Shown here: piece after piece, positions 11,008 to 37,630 of the stretch
Layout: each line of letters begins with the position of its first letter
Position numbering within the stretch: the stretch's first letter is position 1
Assembly (NCBI RefSeq): GCF_003711225.1
Contig: NZ_CP031030.1
Location: 5,332,001-5,396,000 of the forward strand
Direction of reading: 5' to 3'
From: Runella sp. SP2
GTDB taxonomy: Bacteria; Bacteroidota; Bacteroidia; Cytophagales; Spirosomataceae
Length of the DNA stretch: 64,000 nt
The notes under the pieces: generated by a model
The model's database searches: none
Seen by the model: the letters and a program-made list of their open reading frames with translations, nothing else
Told to the model about the DNA's origin: nothing
Made by a program: the position numbers and the translations under genes

Positions 11008-11769
11008 CTAGCGGCCCATCCAGCCACCATCCACGGTCAGGATGGTTCCGTGGACATAGTCCGAAGCCGACGATGCCAAAAACACCGCAGGCCCTTTGAA
11101 GTCTTCGGGCTGCCCCCAGCGTCCCGCAGGAATACGACCCAAAATTGCCGCACTTCGGTCTTCATCAGCGCGCAGTGCCTCGGTGTTGGCTGTAGCGATG
11201 TAGCCTGGTGCAATGGCGTTGACGTTGACTCCTTTGGAAGCCCACTCGTTGGCCAGTGCTTTCACCAAGCTTCCAATAGCGCCTTTGCTCGCTGCATAGC
11301 TTGGCACATTGATACCGCCTTGAAAAGTGAGCATCGAAGCCGTAAAAACGATTTTTCCGTAACCCCGCTCTAGCATCTCTTTTCCAAATTCTCTCGCCAA
11401 AATGAATTGAGCGTCCAAGTTCACCGAAAGAACTTGATCCCAATATTCATCCGAGTGCTCCGCTGCTGGATTTCTCAAAATAATACCCGCGTTGTTGAAT
11501 AGAATATCAATGTGTGCAAAGTCTTCTTTGACTTGTTTGATAAAACGGAACAACGACTCTCGGTTTCCTAAATCTGCTTGGTACGGTTTAAATCGTCTCC
11601 CCAAAGCAGTTACGGCCTTCTCAACTCCGCTTTCTTGCAAAGGCATTGAACGCGATACACCCACAATATCAGCCCCTGCTTCGGCCAAACCCACCGCCAT
11701 GGCCAGGCCGATGCCACTATCGCAACCCGAAACCAACGCCACTTTGCCCGTCAAGCTAAAGTTGTTCAT
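11008..11769 (-). CDS. kduD: 2-dehydro-3-deoxy-D-gluconate 5-dehydrogenase KduD (SDR family)
   Basis: 253 residues of the classical short-chain dehydrogenase fold. The cofactor motif is SGCDSGIGLAMA, followed by NNAG, the catalytic YAASK, and a C-terminus ending VDGGWMGR, typical of KduD. It reduces 2,5-diketo-3-deoxygluconate to 2-keto-3-deoxygluconate with NAD(P)H. It is the first gene of the pectin operon. The next enzymes of the pathway (KdgK, KdgA) are not in the window. ATG start at 11769. Confidence 0.92.
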   Translation of the reverse strand: MNNFSLTGKVALVSGCDSGIGLAMAVGLAEAGADIVGVSRSMPLQESGVEKAVTALGRRFKPYQADLGNRESLFRFIKQVKEDFAHIDILFNNAGIILRNPAAEHSDEYWDQVLSVNLDAQFILAREFGKEMLERGYGKIVFTASMLTFQGGINVPSYAASKGAIGSLVKALANEWASKGVNVNAIAPGYIATANTEALRADEDRSAAILGRIPAGRWGQPEDFKGPAVFLASSASDYVHGTILTVDGGWMGR

Positions 11770-27355: not shown

Positions 27356-28258
27356 ATGGCATTCAAATTTGATTATCGTAAACCTTTGGTCATTTCCGAA
27401 ATTGGTTGTAACCACATGGGGGACTTTGAAATCGCTAAAGAACTTATCAAGTTGTCGAAAGACTGCGGTGCTGATTACGCCAAATTTCAGAAGCGAAATG
27501 CCCGCGAATTGCTCACCGACGAACAATACAATACCCCTCACCCCGTACCCTACAACGCGTATGGAAATACTTACGGCGCGCACCGCGAATTTTTAGAGTT
27601 TACGTGGGAACAACACGCCGACCTCAAAGAATACGCCGAGTCGATTGGCATCGGCTATGCTACCTCGGTATGGGACATCACTTCGGCCCGCGAAATCGCC
27701 GCCCTTCACCCCGATTTTATCAAGGTGCCGTCGGCTTGCAACAACCACTACGAAATGCTTCAATTGCTTCGCGACGAGTACGCTGGCGATATCCATATTT
27801 CTTCGGGAATGACGACGCTCGATGAAATCGAAGAACTGGTCAAGTTTTTTGAAGTAACCGACCAAGCCAAAAGTCGATTGGTATTATACAACTGTACATC
27901 GGGCTATCCTGTGCCTTTCAAAGACATTTGTTTACTGGAAATCAATCGTTTATACGAACATTACGATCACCGAGTCAAAGAAATTGGGTTTTCGGGGCAT
28001 CATTTGGGCATTGCCGCCGACGTTGCCGCTTATACTTTGGGCGCGCGCTGGATTGAACGCCATTTTACCAAAGACCGTACGTGGAAAGGAACTGACCACG
28101 CTGCCTCGCTTGAAGTCCCAGGTCTTCAAAAGCTGGTACGGGATTTGACCCAAATCCAACAAGCGCTTACGTTTAAAAACAAGGAAATTTTGGACATCGA
28201 AGCCGAACAACGCGATAAGCTCAAATATCGCAAAAACACAACTCCTATTGCCTCCTAA
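27356..28258 (+). CDS. Nonulosonate (sialic-acid/KDN type) synthase, 9-phosphate-like, without SAF domain
   Basis: 300 residues. NeuB-type TIM barrel: VISEIGCNHMGD, CGADYAKFQK, TYGAHREFLEF, HISSGM, YNCTSGYP, GFSGH and ERHFTKDRTWKGTDHAASLE. It condenses phosphoenolpyruvate with a six-carbon sugar. The TYGAHREFLEF and WKGTDH stretches resemble the animal 9-phosphate synthase (NANS) more than typical bacterial NeuB, by memory. The C-terminal antifreeze-like SAF domain of usual NeuB (about 345 residues) is absent. It is first in a seven-gene operon with a cytidylyltransferase and a HAD phosphatase; no NeuC epimerase or amino-sugar gene is present. The neutral product KDN is thus a plausible outcome. 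Confidence 0.85.
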   Translation: MAFKFDYRKPLVISEIGCNHMGDFEIAKELIKLSKDCGADYAKFQKRNARELLTDEQYNTPHPVPYNAYGNTYGAHREFLEFTWEQHADLKEYAESIGIGYATSVWDITSAREIAALHPDFIKVPSACNNHYEMLQLLRDEYAGDIHISSGMTTLDEIEELVKFFEVTDQAKSRLVLYNCTSGYPVPFKDICLLEINRLYEHYDHRVKEIGFSGHHLGIAADVAAYTLGARWIERHFTKDRTWKGTDHAASLEVPGLQKLVRDLTQIQQALTFKNKEILDIEAEQRDKLKYRKNTTPIAS

Positions 28259-28262
28259 TTTT

Positions 28263-28997
28263 ATGGCACAACCAAACGTTTTAGCTATTATTCAAGCCCG
28301 AGGCGGTAGCAAAGGGCTTCCCAATAAAAACTTATTACCACTGGCGGGGCATCCGTTGGTCGCTTACAGTGTCAAAGCCGCCCTCGAAACCCCGTCCATT
28401 ACGCGAACCATTATTTCAACCGATTCGCAAGCCATTGCCGACGCGGCTCAAAAGTACGGTGCAGAAGTACCTTTTATCCGCCCCGCCGAGTTTGCCCAAG
28501 ACTTGAGTACCGATTTTGACGTATTTAAGCACGCCCTCAACTGGTTTTGGGAAAACGAAGGTTATCGCCCCGACCTCGTGGTGCAATTGCGCCCCACGTC
28601 GCCCGTTCGGTCGGTTCGGCACATCGACGATGCCATTCAAACCCTTTGGAATACCCCTGAAGCTGATAGTATTCGAACTATTACACCGACCCCTATAACT
28701 CCTTACAAAATGTGGGTATATGACCCCGAAACGGCCACAATGCAGCCGCTTTTGAACCACCCTACCCTCCCTGAGTTTTATAATGAACCCCGTCAAAAAC
28801 TCCCGCCCGTACATTGGCATATTGGCAACCTCGATGTGATTCGGCCTCACGTTATTTTGGACAAAAAATCCATGTCAGGGTATCCTATTCTGCCTTATGT
28901 CCTGCCTTTTGAGTATGCCATCGACATCGACGACCTTGCTGGTTTTCGCAAAGCCGAAGAAACCATGAATCAGGTCGAATGTGTGCGATTTGAGTAA
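28263..28997 (+). CDS. CMP-nonulosonate (acylneuraminate/KDN) cytidylyltransferase
   Basis: 244 residues from the ATG at 28263, 4 bp after the synthase stop. Nucleotide-binding start AIIQARGGSKGLPNKNLLPLAGHPLVAYSV, then STDSQAIADAA and VQLRPTSPVRSVRHID, are typical of NeuA/CMP-sugar synthetases. It activates the nine-carbon sugar with CTP for transfer to a glycan. There is no extra C-terminal esterase domain. Confidence 0.9.
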   Translation: MAQPNVLAIIQARGGSKGLPNKNLLPLAGHPLVAYSVKAALETPSITRTIISTDSQAIADAAQKYGAEVPFIRPAEFAQDLSTDFDVFKHALNWFWENEGYRPDLVVQLRPTSPVRSVRHIDDAIQTLWNTPEADSIRTITPTPITPYKMWVYDPETATMQPLLNHPTLPEFYNEPRQKLPPVHWHIGNLDVIRPHVILDKKSMSGYPILPYVLPFEYAIDIDDLAGFRKAEETMNQVECVRFE

Positions 28998-29025
28998 CAC
29001 CTAGTTCCCAAAAACGTTATCCCTC

Positions 29026-30684
29026 ATGCTCAAAAAACTCGCCATTTTAGCCGCAGGTAGCCTCCCTGTTTTATTTTTCTTTTGGTACGCCTATCATTTT
29101 AGCACCCCTTTTCCCAACGAGGACGATATTCCAGCCATTTTGGCTTTTATCAATCGGGCTTTTCCGTTCACTTCCGAAGCAGGACGATTGCTCTTTGTGC
29201 CGTTTCGGGAACACGTGATTCTCCCTGCCAAACTCATTGCCTACCTCCAAGTGGTAGTCACGGGGCAAATGGATTTGAAAATGATGATTTTGTTGGGCAA
29301 TCTTTTTTGGGTGCGGGTTACATGGATTTTGTATCGTTTGTCCCAAGAAGCCAAGCTCCCAGCCTTGCTTTTCTTGCCCGTTCCTTTCATTCTTTTTCAG
29401 GTTCAATTTTCCGAAACAGCCCTCTGGCCGATGGCACTTTGGTCTAATCTCATTGTAGTTTGGCTAGCGGTTGAATCGTTCAACTTATTGATTTCGGAGA
29501 AAAAAGAATTTTGGCGCTTTGGCTTGGCCTTCTTCCTTGGACTCACCGCCACCTTTTCCAATGGAAATGGCCTTTTAGTCTTATTGATTGGATTCGGGAT
29601 ATTATTGTTCCAAAAAGCCGAGAAGAAACACCTTTTTGCATGGGGAGCAGCCAGCGTTTTGGTGGTTTTGGCTTACCAATGGGCCAAAGCACTCGGCGTG
29701 CCTGATACTTTCTACGGAGTTCAAAAAAATCCCCTAAAATGGCTGCTAGGAAGCATGATTTTCGTAGGAAACTACGGCGATTTTATTTCAGGAAGCCTCA
29801 AAAAAGTAGCGTTAGGGCTTGGGTTCGTGCTTACAGCTGCGCTTGTGGTGGTTAATTTGAGTCAATGGAAAAAGCCTTCGTACGGCACTTCTTTCCATTT
29901 TCGGATGCTTGTCTTCTTTTTGTTCATTCTCGCAACGGCGGGAGGCGTTTCCATTTTGCGCACCGAGCCCGTTGGGCTAGATGCCATGTATCTAGGGCGA
30001 TATCGGCATTACTCCGCCCTGGCAGTTGCGCTCGTGTATCTGAGCAGCGTTGTCTATTTGTACCCCAAACGCCAAGCAAACTGGCTTTTTGCGGGAACGA
30101 TGGTTGCTAGTCTTGTGGTGGGTATTTTCTCCTATTACCGCGACTGGGGCTATCGCTACATGGACAATCAGCGTTTTTTTACCGATGCCTACAACATGCA
30201 GCACAACAACGCTCTTTATCTTGAAATGCCCGCCCCTCAGGAATTTGCCAGTATTTTTCAAGAAACATTGGCCAAAAACATACTGAAAGCCGACCTCACT
30301 AGCTTTGAAGACCTTAAATGGCCTAGTTCTTGGGATAACCTACCTTTGGCACCCATCACTATTCATATTGATAAATCGGCAGATACGACTCGTTGCGTGG
30401 AAGTATATACCGTCAAATCAACAACGCCACAGTTTGAGCTTACGCCAAATGCCCTATGGTTTTGGGCCCTGAAGAGTGACCAACGTACTTTCTTATATCC
30501 AACCACTTCGCTCAAAACAAAGCCTGCGCAATTTGTGCGGCAACGAACGTACTTCCAACCTGGTTTCGTGGGGGAATTAGCCACTTGCCAGCTTCCTAAG
30601 GGCGAATACACCTTGTTTTTAGTGCATGTTGCCGAAAATAAGGAAGCACAGTTTTACACTACTAAACAAACGATACGGCCTTAG
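29026..30684 (+). CDS. Polytopic membrane protein, GT-C-like, paralogue A
   Basis: 552 residues with an N-terminal hydrophobic segment (5-25), an acidic first loop (PNEDDIP, residues 30-36), about nine to eleven further membrane segments up to about residue 370, then a soluble C-terminal domain of about 170 residues. Shared motifs with the gene at 31183 are FREHVI/HNEHII, ALW(P/A)MALWSN, ATF(S/A)NGNGL, GRYR(H/Q)YS(A/S)LAV and S(Y/F)YRD. The acidic pair in the first outer loop recalls GT-C glycosyltransferases that use lipid-linked sugars. A role as a sugar transferase for the operon's glycan is inference; no named family is recognised. Confidence 0.6.
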   Translation: MLKKLAILAAGSLPVLFFFWYAYHFSTPFPNEDDIPAILAFINRAFPFTSEAGRLLFVPFREHVILPAKLIAYLQVVVTGQMDLKMMILLGNLFWVRVTWILYRLSQEAKLPALLFLPVPFILFQVQFSETALWPMALWSNLIVVWLAVESFNLLISEKKEFWRFGLAFFLGLTATFSNGNGLLVLLIGFGILLFQKAEKKHLFAWGAASVLVVLAYQWAKALGVPDTFYGVQKNPLKWLLGSMIFVGNYGDFISGSLKKVALGLGFVLTAALVVVNLSQWKKPSYGTSFHFRMLVFFLFILATAGGVSILRTEPVGLDAMYLGRYRHYSALAVALVYLSSVVYLYPKRQANWLFAGTMVASLVVGIFSYYRDWGYRYMDNQRFFTDAYNMQHNNALYLEMPAPQEFASIFQETLAKNILKADLTSFEDLKWPSSWDNLPLAPITIHIDKSADTTRCVEVYTVKSTTPQFELTPNALWFWALKSDQRTFLYPTTSLKTKPAQFVRQRTYFQPGFVGELATCQLPKGEYTLFLVHVAENKEAQFYTTKQTIRP

Positions 30685-30713
30685 GTGGATAACATTTTAA
30701 ACTGAACGACCCA

Positions 30714-31190
30714 ATGGCGATAAAGCTCTTTTTAACCGATGTGGATGGCGTTATGACCGACGGCAGTATGTATTACACCGAAAGCGGCGACGAGTTCAAG
30801 CGGTTTCATACGCACGACGGAATGGCGTTTGAACTGCTCCGCAAAGCAGGGATTAAAACGGGGATTGTGACGTCGGAAGATACCCAAATCGTGGCAAGAC
30901 GAGCTGCTAAAATCAAAGCCGATTATATTTATCAGGGCAAACGCGACGGGGGTAAATTGGCCGCTGCCCAACAAATTTGCCAAGAACTTAACATCGGTCT
31001 TGAAGAAGTGGCTTACGTAGGCGACGACATCAATTGCCTTGAACTTCTGAGTGCAGTCGGCGTTGCGGCTTGTCCTGCCAATGCCGTCAAGGCCATCAAA
31101 CAAATTCCAAACATTATTTTACTTGAAAAAAAAGGCGGCGACGGTGCCGTGCGCGAGTTTGTGGAGTTTATTTTGAACAACAATGCCTAA
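30714..31190 (+). CDS. HAD phosphatase of the YrbI/C0 group, probable nonulosonate-9-phosphate phosphatase
   Basis: 158 residues, the usual size of tetrameric C0 HAD phosphatases. Motif I DVDGVMTDG (Asp9 nucleophile, Asp11 acid/base), motif II TS, motif IV GDDINCLELL. KDO-8-phosphate phosphatases have an Arg-containing loop after motif II, whereas this protein has Glu55 in TSED and Lys66. That matches my recollection of the Glu56/Lys67 pair that marks the KDN-9-phosphate phosphatase BT1713 of Bacteroides thetaiotaomicron. With the adjacent synthase and cytidylyltransferase genes this points to a 9-phosphate route. Its end overlaps the next gene by 8 bp. Confidence 0.85.
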   Translation: MAIKLFLTDVDGVMTDGSMYYTESGDEFKRFHTHDGMAFELLRKAGIKTGIVTSEDTQIVARRAAKIKADYIYQGKRDGGKLAAAQQICQELNIGLEEVAYVGDDINCLELLSAVGVAACPANAVKAIKQIPNIILLEKKGGDGAVREFVEFILNNNA

Positions 31191-32853
31191 AACAACTGCT
31201 GGATTAACAGGACTTCTTATCGGTGCAACTCTCTACGTAGCGTGGTATTTCTATTACGTCGCCCACTATGCCGTGGACATTCCCTACCTCGACGACTACG
31301 ACGCCATTTTAGATTATCTTCTTGCTTTTCGAGAAGCTACGTTTTGGGAAAAACTCCGTTCTATCTTACTTCCTCACAATGAGCACATTATTTCCATGAC
31401 TCGAATGGTAAGTTGGATTAATTACGGACTAACGGGGCATCTCAACATCTTTGCGTTGCTTCTTTGGGGAAATGCCCTGCTGTTGGTTCCACTGGCGGTA
31501 CTTTACTCCACCTTTGTCCCCACCGAACGTTATCCTGCGCCTTATTTTTTGTTGGTGATTCTTGTCTTTCTTAATCCTCAATATTCCGTTACGGCCTTGT
31601 GGGCAATGGCCTTGTGGTCCAATATTTGGGTATTTGTACCTGTTACACTCAGCATTTTACTGGTCACTCGCCCAAAACGATGGTACTGGTCAATACCCTT
31701 CGCCGTTGTTGCAACCTTCGCCAACGGCAACGGACTGATGATTTGGCCCATTGGCTTGCTAATGCTCTTCTTTGAACGTCGCCCTTTTTTGCAATGGGCA
31801 ATTTGGGCTGGCGCGGGAGTTTTTACCTGCGGAAGTTACTTTTATCTAATGCGTCAACAGCCTTCCGAAGGCTTATTTTTGTTGAGTAATTTACCACTTT
31901 TACCTTTCAACGTGCTCGCTTTTTTGGGTTCTTACGGGGCGTTGTTAGGGGGAAAAGCAGGGCAAATCATCGCGTTGGTTGTGGGAACTGGCGTTACTGC
32001 CATGACGTTGATTACGACCAAAAACTACCTCAAAAGCCGCCAACGTACCGACCTCATTCTTTTGGCGCTGGTTGCTTTTGTCGCACTGACGGCCTTGGCC
32101 GTTGGTTTGTTTCGGGCCGAGAAAGGCATGAGCATCATCATTGGAGGGCGTTATCGGCAATATAGCTCGTTGGCCGTGACAGTGAGCCTCTTAATGGCTT
32201 TCCGCCACCTACCTTTTCACCTGCCTCGCTGGGGACGCGTGTCGATTTGGGGAATGGTGGGATTGGTAACGGTGCTGAGTTTTTATCGTGACATTGGCTT
32301 GCGTAAAACCACCGAATGGCGCACCATTGTTGATTACCACAATCGACTTCACAATCGGCTCGATTTGCTTGCTACGACTCCAAACTCTCAGTATGGAGCG
32401 GATGTTGTTGAAGCTAAACAGATTGGGTTATTTACTGTTTCACCTCAATATAATTTATTAGCCCAACTCAACAACGCCACTCGCATTGATTTTACCAGCC
32501 AAGCTGTGGCCGAACGTTTTGAAGAGAAAAAACTCGACGGGGTTACTTGCGGAAATTATTGGCTCATTGAAGAACCGCAGCTCCAATTTCCAAGCCGTGA
32601 TGACGAGGCAATTTATTTGGTACTTTCCAAAGATAATCAGCACATTATATTTCCAACCGCTTCCAAGCGAAATGGTCTTTCGGCTATGATAAAACAGCGA
32701 AGTTATTTCCGAAAAGGGCTTGAAGCCGAAGTATATGACTGTTTGCAGTCGTTTGATGCGTACGAAATTAATTGGTTAAAAGTTGAAGAAAAACCGCTGT
32801 TATACACAACTCACAGCACGATTTCTCAATTTCGCATACGTTTCAAGCAGTAA
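31183..32853 (+). CDS. Polytopic membrane protein, GT-C-like, paralogue B
   Basis: 556 residues with the same plan as the gene at 29026: N-terminal membrane segment, acidic loop (PYLDDYD, residues 34-40), HNEHII, TALWAMALWSN, ATFANGNGLMI, GRYRQYSSLAV, SFYRD, then a soluble tail that also contains a conserved stretch around GVTCGNYWLIEEP. The start overlaps the phosphatase gene by 8 bp, which implies coupled translation. I infer two related transferases or polymerase-like proteins acting on the same glycan. Alternative: O-antigen polymerase-like proteins. Confidence 0.6.
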   Translation: MPKTTAGLTGLLIGATLYVAWYFYYVAHYAVDIPYLDDYDAILDYLLAFREATFWEKLRSILLPHNEHIISMTRMVSWINYGLTGHLNIFALLLWGNALLLVPLAVLYSTFVPTERYPAPYFLLVILVFLNPQYSVTALWAMALWSNIWVFVPVTLSILLVTRPKRWYWSIPFAVVATFANGNGLMIWPIGLLMLFFERRPFLQWAIWAGAGVFTCGSYFYLMRQQPSEGLFLLSNLPLLPFNVLAFLGSYGALLGGKAGQIIALVVGTGVTAMTLITTKNYLKSRQRTDLILLALVAFVALTALAVGLFRAEKGMSIIIGGRYRQYSSLAVTVSLLMAFRHLPFHLPRWGRVSIWGMVGLVTVLSFYRDIGLRKTTEWRTIVDYHNRLHNRLDLLATTPNSQYGADVVEAKQIGLFTVSPQYNLLAQLNNATRIDFTSQAVAERFEEKKLDGVTCGNYWLIEEPQLQFPSRDDEAIYLVLSKDNQHIIFPTASKRNGLSAMIKQRSYFRKGLEAEVYDCLQSFDAYEINWLKVEEKPLLYTTHSTISQFRIRFKQ

Positions 32854-32919
32854 ACACGTTGTTTTTACAACTATCTTTTACGCTTTTGTAAACAGGCTTG
32901 CCTCAGTTTCATCTAGCTT

Positions 32920-33906
32920 ATGACAAAAATTATTGATACATTTCTATTCAGTGAACCCCACGAAAAAGAAGCGCTACTGATTAAATTTATTCTGGGCGGA
33001 GAAGCCATTACGGAGTGGGTTATTGTTGAAAATGAATATACATTTCAAGGAGAACACAAGGGCGTTTTTGCCCAACAAGTACTTGACTCCGACGAGCGTT
33101 TTGCCCCGTTCCGCGACCGTATTCACCTCATATCGGCCTCGTTGCAGCACCCTCCTATTGATTACACGCGCAAAGACATTGATACCCAAGGGATGGATTC
33201 GGAGCGCCGTCAGCGTTCGCTGGCCCAGAAATATATCGTAGAAAAATACGGCCACGAAACCGACGTTTGGGTACTACTTTCGGATGCCGACGAAGTGATT
33301 GATTTCGATTCTTTTCCCGATAATTTTACATTTTTAACCACCAAACTCACCGCTGCCAACGACGGTTTGGTTCAAATTCCGCGTCGCCGATTTTGGTACG
33401 ACTACGACAACCTTTGGAATGCCGTTCGGGCTACGCCCATCGTGACGGTACAACGCCTCGCCCAAGCCACGGGCGACATGGGCATGGGGCTTCTTCGTTC
33501 TGATTACATCGGAGCCGTGCCCGAATGGGAGCGTACGCTGGTCTATGAGTATTCGTATTGCTATAATCGCGAAAGCATTTTACGAAAGTTTAGGACTTTT
33601 CCTCATGGTGGCATGACCGATGACGAAATTTCTCAAAGTATGCGATGTAACCACATACCTATTTCAAAATTCAGGAATAAGAAACTGGATTTACACCCAG
33701 AACTTTGGATGGAAAAAGTGGCTTTAGACAACCATAATGCGCCTCGTTATGTAAAAAACCACTTAAAAACCTTACGCACAAATGTGATAGATGACAATTA
33801 TTTAGCAAACCGCAAGACAGACTATCCTCATTTACACCGCCTTTCGCACCGTATAGGCTTTTTTGTGAAACAGCTAGGCAAAAAAATACTACGAACCTTC
33901 AAATGA
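32920..33906 (+). CDS. Glycosyltransferase family 17-like protein
   Basis: 328 residues, soluble. Opens with IIDTFLFSEPHEKEALLIKF and contains FRDRIHLIS, DVWVLLSDADEVIDFDSF and FWYDYDNLW, the pattern of GT17 (beta-1,4-GlcNAc transferase-like) proteins found in bacterial surface-glycan loci. LSDADE is the likely metal/nucleotide-sugar site. It probably adds a sugar in the cytoplasm to the glycan built by this operon. The stop overlaps the flippase start (ATGA). Confidence 0.8.
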   Translation: MTKIIDTFLFSEPHEKEALLIKFILGGEAITEWVIVENEYTFQGEHKGVFAQQVLDSDERFAPFRDRIHLISASLQHPPIDYTRKDIDTQGMDSERRQRSLAQKYIVEKYGHETDVWVLLSDADEVIDFDSFPDNFTFLTTKLTAANDGLVQIPRRRFWYDYDNLWNAVRATPIVTVQRLAQATGDMGMGLLRSDYIGAVPEWERTLVYEYSYCYNRESILRKFRTFPHGGMTDDEISQSMRCNHIPISKFRNKKLDLHPELWMEKVALDNHNAPRYVKNHLKTLRTNVIDDNYLANRKTDYPHLHRLSHRIGFFVKQLGKKILRTFK

Positions 33907-35447
33907 ATTTAGATTATCGTAACATAGCTACTTTACTCAGTCTCAACACCATCAATGTCATCCTGAACGTTGTCAACTCAACGCTCATGGTCTATTTTTT
34001 TGGTACTTCTGCCGAAGTAGAAGCTTTTTTTGCAGCCTCCGTTTTAGGGACGACCGTCTCCCGTTTTGTCAACGCAGGCCAGCTTGTCGAAGTAGTTGTA
34101 GCGCGTTACCACCGCATCAAATCTGAAGTAAATACCGCCGCCGCGATGTCGATTGTAGCAACGCTGGCCAATTACATCGTAGGCATCGCGTTTGTCTTGG
34201 TGCTTTTGTTTATTGCCAGCGGTACCGACGTCGTCAATCTGCTTGTTCCTGGCTTTAAACTAACGACCAAAGAGCAAGTGTGGCAAATTTTCTGTTTTAC
34301 GGGTTTTTTACTCCCAATTCAGATTGCCACCAACGTTTTCCAAGGCATGTTAAATGCCGAAAATATTTACGGAAAAACCGAGTTTACCAGCACAATTTCG
34401 CAACTCGTGCACGTACTGATTCTTTGTATTTGGGGAAGAGACGGCAATATCTGGAGCTTGGTGGCGGCCCTTTTTATCAGTGTTTTGGCCCAATTTGGCA
34501 CTGTGGTCTATTACTTACGGCAGATTCATTATCGCCACACATGGCTTTTCCGCAACCCTCACTTTCCCCTTCGTGAGCTGTCCAGTACGCTGATGGCGAC
34601 GTCCACCTATATGGGTGGCGTACAAGTCTATACGTTTATTTTTAACGCTGCACTTTCGCTTTTGCCATCGGGTACGTACGCGTTGTTTCGTTACGCCGAA
34701 CTTATCTACGGAAAAGTGGCCAACGTCTTTTTAATCCCCGTTAGCACCGTTTTTTTCAACGAAATCAACCGCCTACTTCACCAAAACAACGGACAGTTGA
34801 TTAAAGCTTTTGTCGCCAAAAACCTCAATTTTTCGTATTTCATCGGTTTTTTGGTACTAATTCCCTTTGTCGCGGGAGGCCAATATTTGATTTGGACGCT
34901 TTGGGGTGGTGTAAAATTCAACGCCCAAGACGTAGAAAGCGTTTATCAGCTTTTGTGCGTATTTTTTGCCGCCATGATTTGCACGGGGCCGTACATGATT
35001 TACCGCAAATTGGCCGTTTCGGTCACCAATCCAGAGTTGCAGTATTATTTCTGGAGTGTCGTTCACGTTCTGTCGGCTTTGTTCAGCTACTTTATCATCC
35101 AAACCTTCGGTTTTACGGGCGTTTTGATCCATCTGTTTACGCACAGTACGTTCATGGCGCTTGTTCCACTGCTTACGGTATGGACAAAGAAAAAAGCCTA
35201 TTTTGGCTTTTACGAAGGGGGCGAAGTGCTCAAAATTACCTTTGCTTTCTTAGTCAGCGTTAGCGTAGGTTGGTTGACCAAAGGCTATTGGCAAGACATC
35301 AGCCACTACAACAAACTGGCCAGTTTTTTTATTGGCGCTAGCCTTGCATGCGTAGCCATCCTCGTTTTCATCGGCATTTGCCTTTTACTAAAAGTAACTG
35401 ATTTACAAATCATTAGAGAAAAAATAAGCAAGCGTATTTCCAAGTAA
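33903..35447 (+). CDS. MurJ/MVF-type polysaccharide flippase
   Basis: 514 residues with about 12-14 membrane segments, opening with IATLLSLNTINVILNVVNSTLMVYFFG. The pattern (GTSAEVEAFFAA, then ETSTIS-like central region) fits the MOP superfamily, MurJ/Wzx group. A housekeeping MurJ is less likely because it is last in a glycan operon and translationally coupled to a glycosyltransferase. It should flip a lipid-linked oligosaccharide across the inner membrane. Confidence 0.8.
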   Translation: MNLDYRNIATLLSLNTINVILNVVNSTLMVYFFGTSAEVEAFFAASVLGTTVSRFVNAGQLVEVVVARYHRIKSEVNTAAAMSIVATLANYIVGIAFVLVLLFIASGTDVVNLLVPGFKLTTKEQVWQIFCFTGFLLPIQIATNVFQGMLNAENIYGKTEFTSTISQLVHVLILCIWGRDGNIWSLVAALFISVLAQFGTVVYYLRQIHYRHTWLFRNPHFPLRELSSTLMATSTYMGGVQVYTFIFNAALSLLPSGTYALFRYAELIYGKVANVFLIPVSTVFFNEINRLLHQNNGQLIKAFVAKNLNFSYFIGFLVLIPFVAGGQYLIWTLWGGVKFNAQDVESVYQLLCVFFAAMICTGPYMIYRKLAVSVTNPELQYYFWSVVHVLSALFSYFIIQTFGFTGVLIHLFTHSTFMALVPLLTVWTKKKAYFGFYEGGEVLKITFAFLVSVSVGWLTKGYWQDISHYNKLASFFIGASLACVAILVFIGICLLLKVTDLQIIREKISKRISK

Positions 35448-35626: not shown

Positions 35627-37630
35627 TTAGTTACAACCACCCCCAATTTGTGCTTTAAAGACCGTTTCCTCGGCTTTAAACCCAGGTAGTAATGTTACCG
35701 AACTCTCTCCTCTGTACTCTACGTTGGCATAGATGATTTGATTAGTCGCCGTTATGGCTGTAGCCCCGTAAAGGCCCGTCCCTGAACTGATATTGTTGGC
35801 AATCGAAAGCGATGCTCCACCGCAACCAATCCCCTGAATATCGAAATTGTAAGGATTTTCATCGGCATCGTCATTGGCGATACTAACGGTGGCTTTTCTC
35901 AATCCTCCCGCCGAAGGTATAAAGGCAATCTGAAAAGTAGTGCTGCCACTGCTAGCTGCTATGGGCGAAGCAGGTTGAACATTCACCGTAAAATCTGCGG
36001 CATGTGTTCCCGAAATAACCACTTTGTTGGGCGAACCCGTTAAGTTCAACACTCCTGCGCCCGTATTTTCAATGGTAAATGTTCGGACAACCGCCCCTGT
36101 TCCTAACGACTGAGTGCCAAAATCGGTGTGGTCATTTATTGAAGGAGTTATATCACCGTCTGCAATGGAAACATTGTTGCTTTTGAGGTTTATTTCAGAG
36201 TCAGATACACATAAAAAAGTATCTCCTATTATAGTCCAGCCCTTGCCGCCATCGGCTACGGGTTTTATTAAATTGGCTCTATCGGTGACAGAGGAACAGT
36301 ATTTACGGTTTACAGCCCCCAAAGTCCTCTCGGTTGCTGTACCCAAATTAAAACCCACTAGAGTAGCGTCATAATTGGCCAAACTCATCCCACAATTATC
36401 AAGAAATTTTTCCAAATTTATATTTGGGTGAAGTTTTGCTCCCCAAAGCGCTAGACTTTGATTAAAGGCAGTTGCTCCATAAAACATATATCGCATATCT
36501 ATCACCATCTCAATGTTCCAATCTCCAATATACTGATTAAAGGCTGTTGTTCCATAAAACATCCAAACCATATATTTTACCCCTGCCGTTGTAAAGCTAC
36601 TAGGAAACTGTTTGTTATAATAGAGACAACCGTAAAACATACCACTCATATTCGTTACTTTTCCCGTTATAAAGCTGCCAGGAAGAGGTTGGTTATAAAT
36701 ACTGCAACCACCAAACATACTACTCATATCCGTTACTGAAGAAGTATTAAAACTACTGGGTAGAGGTTGATTATAAACACTACAACCACCAAACATACTA
36801 CTCATATCCGTTACTGACGATGTATTAAAACTATTAGGTAGGGGTTGGTTGTAAGAAAAGCACCCAAAAAACATCATACTCATATTCTTTACTAAAGAAG
36901 TATTGAAGTTAATTGGTAAAGGTTGATTATATGAACTACAGTCATAAAACATACTATTCATATCAATAACCGATGATGTAATAAAGCTACTCGGTAAAGG
37001 TTGATTGTATCTGCTACAAACAGAAAACATATCGCTCATGTTCTTTACGTTTGAAGTATTAAAACTAATCGGTAGAGGTTGATTATAAGAACGACAACCA
37101 GCAAACATAGCACTCATATTCGTTACAGCCTCTGTGTTAAAGCCATTAGGTAAAGGTTGATTAAAAGAAAGGCAATCCCGAAACATCGAACTCATATCCA
37201 TTACAGCAGCGGTATTTGGTACATCCTTAGCATTGAGTACCATGTACTGACAACCATAAAAGGCACTGTTCATATTTTTCCAAGCCACATCGCCCCATTG
37301 TTCAATCGAAGTCAGGCGGTTTCTGTCATAACCATCATTTATTATAAATCTTTGAAAATTGGCTGGCCCAATTCTCAAATCAATAATCTTATTGGCAGGT
37401 AAGCCTGTAATTGTTGCAACTGAACCCGTAAACGTACCCGACCCACTCGTTCCTGAGGGAACGGTTTCCCAAGTATAATTAACTGTGCCAGAGGTCGCTA
37501 CTCCAAAACTCAACTGCGTAGTTCCCGAACCCGCCGTAGCCAAATTCCAGCGAGTGATGAAAGGTCGGTTTTGAGCCATCAACTGTTGGCTTATCAGCAA
37601 AGCCACGAAAAAGAAAAATAGTTGTTTCAT
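35627..37630 (-). CDS. Secreted BspA-like repeat protein (DUF285) with C-terminal 3-coathanger domain
   Basis: 667 residues; signal peptide about 1-19. Residues about 140-390 hold roughly nine 26-residue repeats of the form FNTSxVxxMSxMFxxCxxYNQPLPx, the DUF285/BspA surface-repeat type linked to adhesion. A beta-sandwich of the choice-of-anchor-D type follows ([21 protein letters not shown]) at about 490-590. The last 60 residues ([24 protein letters not shown]) fit the 3-coathanger stack domain. Two adjacent repeats are nearly identical, so the array has expanded recently. The repeat DNA is AT-rich: one 60-bp line counted by hand has 33% GC. Confidence 0.85.

Follow-up and report, generated by a model that had tools for sequence, protein, structure and literature searches.

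A SAF-less NeuB-family synthase clade and a proposed CMP-KDN operon in Runella sp. SP2

The stretch of Runella sp. SP2 DNA analysed here (the window, 64,000 nucleotides; G000:C1:5332001-5396000 of a genome of about 7.6 Mb) carries a seven-gene operon at 27356-35447. The operon encodes a NeuB-family synthase, a cytidylyltransferase for cytidine monophosphate (CMP) sugars, a HAD phosphatase, two paralogous membrane proteins, a GT17-like protein and a flippase. We propose that it probably makes CMP-activated KDN (2-keto-3-deoxy-D-glycero-D-galacto-nononic acid) by a 9-phosphate route resembling that of animals and builds CMP-KDN into a lipid-linked surface glycan. KDN is a relative of sialic acid that contains no nitrogen. 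The pathway is of a known kind; new are the synthase clade, its residue mark and the gene arrangement.

Operon organization

The seven open reading frames (ORFs) of an earlier reading of the same letters, the original prediction, are all present, co-directional and closely spaced in the ORF listing. In gene order, they are:

27356..28258, + strand: SAF-less NeuB-family synthase of the T1 clade, proposed KDN-9-phosphate synthase, 300 residues (PF03102, 224.7 bits)
28263..28997, + strand: CMP-sugar cytidylyltransferase, proposed CMP-KDN synthetase (PF02348, CTP_transf_3, 91.2 bits)
29026..30684, + strand: membrane protein A, 552 residues, paralogue of B (11 overlapping hydrophobic stretches)
30714..31190, + strand: HAD phosphatase, proposed KDN-9-phosphate phosphatase, 158 residues (HAD Pfam 42.7 bits; NF058599 187.7)
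31183..32853, + strand: membrane protein B, 556 residues, paralogue of A (27% identity to A)
32920..33906, + strand: GT17-like glycosyltransferase, 328 residues (PF04724, 25.5 bits, cut-off 26)
33903..35447, + strand: MVF/MurJ-family flippase, 514 residues (PF03023, 82.8 bits, cut-off 27.4)

Membrane protein A begins 28 bp past the cytidylyltransferase gene, and the phosphatase gene 29 bp past that of A. The gene of membrane protein B overlaps the phosphatase gene by 8 bp, the GT17-like gene lies 66 bp past B, and the flippase gene overlaps it by 4 bp. The ORF listing starts the cytidylyltransferase at a TTG at position 28248; the ATG at 28263, 4 bp past the synthase stop, is the likelier true start.

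The synthase belongs to a separate SAF-less clade

The synthase was predicted to lack the SAF domain, and its sequence bears this out: NeuB is the sole Pfam domain in its 300 residues, and its match to the Neu5Ac (N-acetylneuraminic acid) synthase model TIGR03569 covers model positions 2-274 of 329. The score of that match, 187.6 bits, is under the cut-off of 399.65, and the score against the pseudaminate synthase model TIGR03586, 135.7 bits, is under 340.25. The second NeuB-family gene of the genome is PseI (513.7 bits). The predicted structure of the synthase (predicted local distance difference test score, pLDDT, 92.3) has 1xuu as its best match in the PDB. In the fold comparison, NeuB and PseI come first (E 1e-24 to 1e-18), with synthases of 3-deoxy-D-manno-octulosonate (KDO) 8-phosphate and 3-deoxy-D-arabino-heptulosonate 7-phosphate (DAHP) far lower. 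We rejected the synthase as a KDO-8-phosphate synthase, the first of which appears at 7e-9.

In the careful tree, the synthase belongs to a clade of its own, T1 (100/100), apart from the T2, T3, PseI and NeuB groups; the original prediction had named grouping with NeuB enzymes as the outcome that would speak against it. The T3, or BT1714-type, synthases form another clade (100/100) and are defined as the neighbours of BT1713-like phosphatases, BT1714 itself not being among the rows. The labels PseI and NeuB each derive from one scanned row (L001 and L210). For this tree, 21 of the 37 T1 rows were kept and L186, L048_7670, L201 and a Neisseria fragment were omitted; its bootstrap had not converged. 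The stem of T1 is long, at 1.65 changes per column. Sequence length, together with how far single rows match the NeuB model, indicates that T1 and T2 are without the SAF domain and that T3 has it: T3 rows are about 344-355 residues long, and in L163 the NeuB-model match runs to position 328 of 329.

T1 relatives, 60-98% identical to the window synthase, occur in several phyla. In one scan of genome contigs, the best 80 of 574 confirmed relatives are 60-74% identical, and their records are labelled Bacteroidota, Bacillota, Spirochaetota, Planctomycetota, Pseudomonadota, Bdellovibrionota and Kaiserbacteria; labels of metagenome-assembled genomes among them may be wrong. One of these 80 named loci, L093, yielded no synthase ORF, so that 79 were counted. 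Six Saprospiraceae records are among the T1 matches listed. Of 395 genomes sampled evenly across the window's phylum, 11 have a synthase match with an E-value of 1e-70 or better.

Immediately upstream of BT1714-type synthases lie NeuB-profile proteins of 554-586 residues (L171:7051-8811, - strand; L172:638-2302, + strand; L167:2040-3713, + strand). The L171 protein, the one scanned of the three, combines a NeuB domain with a cytidylyltransferase domain.

A basic triad accompanies the phosphatase

Column-by-column comparison between the synthase groups identified three basic residues as candidate ligands of the substrate phosphate:

27491..27493, + strand: codon of Lys46 (K in 37/37 T1, 7/7 T2 and 14/14 T3; T in 11/11 PseI-group and 4/4 NeuB-group rows)
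27584..27586, + strand: codon of Arg77 (R/K in all T1, T2 and T3; Y in 11/11 PseI-group, L/A in 4/4 NeuB-group rows)
28217..28219, + strand: codon of Lys288 (K/R in all T1, T2 and T3; not K/R in the PseI and NeuB groups; alignment less sure)

Lys46 neighbors Gln45, which aligns with the active-site residue Gln55 of Neisseria meningitidis NeuB. Lys288 is located in the conserved C-terminal tail, where the longer enzymes run on towards the SAF domain. Of 103 synthases with a phosphatase-family HAD no more than 4 kb away, 102 carry the triad; the single exception is a second synthase, encoded in a locus where a T1 gene is also present. The triad is missing from 25 of 26 long synthases (at least 330 residues) without such a HAD within 4 kb; 21 SAF-less synthases have the triad and no phosphatase within this distance. 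The count accepts any phosphatase-family HAD, including two of 84 from T1 loci without a readable Glu/Lys pair (described below), and leaves out the three upstream NeuB-profile ORFs of L171, L172 and L167. The phosphatase search supplied the T3 loci, L178 (T2) and, among the 101 T1 loci, four (L179-L182), all of which have a phosphatase neighbour by design; the synthase search supplied the other 97 T1 loci. Because of the T3 loci and these five, the association between triad and phosphatase is only partly independent. We interpret K46/R77/K288 as a putative sugar-phosphate site, which as it stands is a correlate of the 9-phosphate route rather than a proven site.

In N. meningitidis NeuB, Arg314 of the antifreeze/SAF-like domain touches N-acetylmannosamine (ManNAc) and is needed (PMC6795526). 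Since this ManNAc-contacting arginine goes with the domain, its loss suits a substrate without an N-acetyl group. The two traits are not strictly linked, because the T3 enzymes keep the SAF domain.

The HAD phosphatase carries the marks of KDN-9-phosphate phosphatases

The phosphatase scores 187.7 bits against the KDN-9-phosphate-phosphatase equivalog NF058599, over the cut-off of 180, and 123.3 bits against the KdsC equivalog NF007019, under the cut-off of 208. It also passes the wider KdsC-family model TIGR01670 (137 bits, cut-off 106.95). In the PDB, it matches 3e81 best (E 3.6e-45), an entry filed there as an acylneuraminate cytidylyltransferase, which we take to be BT1713. Two residues are at the positions given in the original prediction:

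30876..30878, + strand: codon of Glu55 (E56 of BT1713, from the alignment)
30909..30911, + strand: codon of Lys66 (K67 of BT1713, from the alignment)

Both align with E56/K67 of 3e81, and PDB entries 4hgq and 4hgr differ there in the stretch compared. The original prediction treated this pair as the mark of KDN-9-phosphate phosphatases, which we likewise assume, and the counts agree with it. Among the HADs of synthase loci, the pair is present in 82 of 84 for T1 (the others have E/I in one case and a gap in the other), 6 of 6 for T2 and 15 of 15 for T3, against none of 13 control HADs, three of which, all weak matches, have Glu at the first place. The controls comprise five separate KdsC proteins of related genomes, one Pseudomonas KdsC, four other relatives and the three weak matches. 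The five separate KdsC have Q/Y or G/F at the two places, and Q/Y, G/F or R/S occur across the KdsC comparison. An E/K protein of the KdsC family is encoded in all 14 T1-synthase genomes that were searched for this family.

A quick tree groups the window phosphatase with BT1713-type and other T1 phosphatases (SH-aLRT, Shimodaira-Hasegawa-like approximate likelihood ratio test, 87). The original prediction had expected it apart from KDO-8-phosphate phosphatases, and the five separate KdsC indeed form a clade of their own (100*); the Pseudomonas KdsC is isolated on a long branch of its own, and row L044 is badly filled. The T1 phosphatases are not one clade (three changes are needed), because the Flavobacterium-type and some others lie outside the BT1713 group. 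In locus L178 (4811-6238, - strand), a single ORF of 475 residues fuses an E/K-type phosphatase domain with a T2 synthase.

Cytidylyltransferase and context of the T1 loci

The predicted CMP-sugar cytidylyltransferase is recognised by PF02348, and its score against the PseF model TIGR03584 is 122.6 bits, under the cut-off of 205.7. Within 6 kb of the synthase, the 101 T1 loci hold a cytidylyltransferase-phosphatase fusion (57), both as separate genes (22, the arrangement of the window), a cytidylyltransferase only (9), a phosphatase only (4) or neither (9).

A Gfo/Idh protein paired with a short-chain dehydrogenase/reductase (SDR), each at least 44% identical to the query, is encoded near the synthase in 13 of 148 loci searched, two of which are the sources of the queries; 11 of the 13 also hold the phosphatase. 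Loci with the pair, which sits after the cytidylyltransferase, come from the genus and family of the window and from a few records with names, among them a Cytophagales metagenome-assembled genome and two Dyadobacter. Membrane protein A occupies this position in the window and in its closest relatives (L113, L114, L119, L120 and L131). The window operon has neither gene, and the sole match in the window is a 27-29% identical SDR at 11020-11763. The simplest reading is that the relatives with the pair produce an altered KDN, for example an epimer, and that the window organism produces plain KDN.

Congeners repeat the gene order of the operon with variation. In the genus survey, an unbroken synthase of the T1 kind occurs in 10 of 13 genomes, including that of the window; it is broken in G008 and was not found in G006 and G009. 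The operon of G008 (L131) is decaying: the synthase match spans 73 residues only, membrane protein B is fragmented, and a phosphatase match was not found.

A protein of about 465 residues recurs near T1 synthases, in L064 (11698-13092) and 17 other loci, one or two genes after the synthase in 17 of the 18. The L064 protein has a weak match to CDP-glycerol glycerophosphotransferase (24 bits against 22.1) and is a candidate KDN transferase.

Proposed pathway

We hypothesize that the synthase condenses mannose-6-phosphate with phosphoenolpyruvate to KDN-9-phosphate, with the basic triad K46, R77 and K288 holding the sugar phosphate. The HAD phosphatase would then take the 9-phosphate off KDN-9-phosphate, and the cytidylyltransferase would activate KDN with cytidine triphosphate. 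The GT17-like enzyme is a possible cytoplasmic transferase, and the MVF protein would flip the lipid-linked glycan. In the periplasm, the paired GT-C-like membrane proteins may extend the glycan or hand it on. The original prediction of CMP-KDN by the 9-phosphate route is supported by the equivalog that the phosphatase passes and by the tree positions of synthase and phosphatase. It had called the product a neutral nine-carbon sugar, which is incorrect, as KDN is an acid.

Substrate supply and alternative readings

The window genome has no match to NanE, and no NeuC equivalog is over the cut-off in any of 14 genomes, that of the window included. ManNAc-6-phosphate is thus without an evident source in the window genome, which makes mannose-6-phosphate the likeliest substrate and CMP-KDN the likeliest product. 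The best candidate for the enzyme that makes mannose-6-phosphate is a cupin that matches PF01050 (39.6 bits, cut-off 23.6) and in which we read the stretches HHRRAE and RVQDDFGR as motifs.

Several observations weigh against the proposed CMP-KDN pathway. Neither a type I nor a PGI-type phosphomannose isomerase turned up in the window genome; PF20511 and PF10432 each have one match among the 14 genomes, neither of them in that of the window. No CMP-nonulosonate transferase was recognised in the operon, no phosphatase is present within the stretch examined in 17 of the 101 T1 loci, and we found no T1 enzyme with a published assay. As BT1714-type synthases keep the SAF domain, KDN synthesis does not require its loss. 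Two NeuC-family relatives in the window genome score 97.5 and 88.9 bits (cut-off 235.9), so that a source of ManNAc is conceivable. Finally, the E/K phosphatase is the sole HAD over the KdsC-family cut-off in nine of the 14 genomes, including that of the window. Because it is also the genome's only KdsC-type protein and the evidence comes from sequence, we infer KDN as the product and hold it provisionally.

This last observation suggests that the phosphatase might serve KDO synthesis, alone or additionally, in which case the link of the operon to KDN would be weaker than it appears. KdsA, the KDO-8-phosphate synthase, is over the cut-off in all 14 genomes (G000:C1:2108633-2109397 in that of the window), and the E/K phosphatase may serve both the KDN and KDO pathways, or another enzyme may replace KdsC. 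We consider a KDO role that undermines the KDN link unlikely: the phosphatase fails the KdsC equivalog and passes that for KDN-9-phosphate, it has E/K where the five separate KdsC have other residues, the tree sets it apart from those five, and its relatives lie beside or are fused to nonulosonate genes.

The operon could also follow the same 9-phosphate route with ManNAc-6-phosphate as the substrate and produce CMP-Neu5Ac, as in animals. Outside T1, no row of the comparison matches the window synthase better than human NANS (36%, 178 bits; NANS sequence entered by hand). NANS accepts both ManNAc-6-phosphate and mannose-6-phosphate (PMC6200933), and the two sub-cut-off NeuC relatives could fit such a route. 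The missing NanE and NeuC equivalogs, the synthase without the SAF arginine and a phosphatase that passes the KDN-9-phosphate model make CMP-Neu5Ac an improbable product.

Comparably improbable is the use of another hexose-6-phosphate, or a later alteration of the product, leading to an undescribed deaminated nonulosonate instead of KDN; the long stem of T1 and the Gfo/Idh-SDR pair, which suits epimerisation by oxidation and reduction, agree with it, and set against it are the lack of that pair in the window operon and the use of mannose-6-phosphate by the KDN-9-phosphate synthases of Bacteroides thetaiotaomicron and Prymnesium (PMC6200933).

Beyond the proposed CMP-KDN pathway of the window, we speculate that the T1 enzymes form a minimal kind of KDN-9-phosphate synthase, free of SAF, which has gone unrecognised as a family and has spread between phyla together with a partner, a CMP-transferase/phosphatase with the architecture of vertebrate CMAS. 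The triad would be the 6-phosphate site that separates phosphate-using from free-sugar synthases, and the Gfo/Idh-SDR form would make an undescribed epimer of KDN. This wider scenario is tentative, and we lean slightly against it.

Comparison with known systems

The KDN pathway BT1713-BT1715 of B. thetaiotaomicron has three enzyme types with the same roles as those proposed for the window (PMC6200933). The original prediction had drawn on studies of this set. The window phosphatase shares the BT1713 group and the E/K pair; the synthase is in another clade, is about 31-35% identical to BT1714-type rows and lacks their SAF domain. The basic triad is common to the window synthase and all 14 BT1714-type rows. 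Unlike the BT1713-BT1715 set, the window genes share their operon with a flippase, a GT17-like protein and two unclassified membrane proteins. In the alga Prymnesium parvum, the first and last steps of the KDN pathway are the same as those proposed here; its synthase is reported to have given a product with mannose-6-phosphate only among the sugars tried, and no phosphatase was found (PMC6200933).

The predicted resemblance to the animal 9-phosphate synthase extends to the barrel of NANS, which is 36% identical, and to the triad, K/K/K in the human NANS sequence entered by hand. It stops there, because the animal enzyme, of 359 residues, has an antifreeze/SAF-type domain, unlike the window synthase (PMC13214540). 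NANS joins T1 at 97/87 in the careful tree, with a long-branch warning, and its best scores are 219 bits for T2, 209 for T3 and 199 for T1. Given these scores, the meeting of long branches and a bootstrap that had not converged, a close kinship of T1 and animal NANS is a lead only.

The cytidylyltransferase-HAD fusion of 57 of the 101 T1 loci has the same domain order as vertebrate CMAS, and the window has the two as separate genes. For mouse CMAS, neither the enzyme nor its HAD-like domain is reported to have shown phosphatase activity (PMC8636478). KdsC is in the same HAD subfamily as the window phosphatase, as the TIGR01670 match indicates, and differs from it by the failed equivalog and the E/K pair.

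KDN has been reported in Streptomyces, Sinorhizobium fredii and a Klebsiella (PMC7845648). In a survey of granular sludge, it ranked second in abundance among the nonulosonates of three of the four sludges; the survey describes Neu5Ac and KDN synthases as indistinguishable by database annotation and uses B. thetaiotaomicron AAO76821 as its KDN reference (PMC10483923). We take AAO76821 to be BT1714. A search with a BT1714-type reference would not single out T1, because T1, at about 31-35% identity, is about as distant from BT1714-type enzymes as ordinary NeuB is. In openly licensed papers, we found no description of a SAF-free KDN-9-phosphate synthase family or of the basic triad. Used together, the clade, the missing domain, the three-residue mark and the phosphatase mark would allow KDN producers to be predicted from sequence and could help in distinguishing them from organisms that make ordinary sialic acid. 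The prediction is testable with three small soluble enzymes.

Membrane proteins, GT17-like protein and flippase

Membrane proteins A and B are paralogues, as predicted, and have no usable match in Pfam, NCBIfam or PHROGs, nor, for A, in a PDB sequence search. A DD and an EH motif are invariant in 15 of 15 aligned A/B proteins, the DD following the first hydrophobic stretch. Pfam gave single-member matches only among these 15, the best to DUF5058 (E 0.00095). A model of membrane protein B built from the window's own two paralogues (pLDDT 36) is not interpretable. The topology and the DD/EH pattern suggest that both proteins may be GT-C-like.

The score of the GT17-like protein is just below the PF04724 cut-off, and one of four scanned relatives (L121, 26.6 bits) is above it. 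In L121 (G018), the GT17-like gene directly adjoins a T1 synthase gene on an 11.9 kb contig with no cytidylyltransferase or phosphatase match. This adjacency hints that the GT17-like protein and the T1 synthase might act together. The flippase is over its Pfam cut-off, in line with the original prediction, and under that of the MurJ equivalog TIGR01695 (89.7 bits, cut-off 235.55).

A promoter scan was uninformative (8 sites, 12.3 expected by chance), with 15 terminators against 11.6. The operon is adjoined on the opposite strand by a gene for a DUF285 repeat protein (35627-37630 of the window, - strand), which contains 78-bp tandem repeats.

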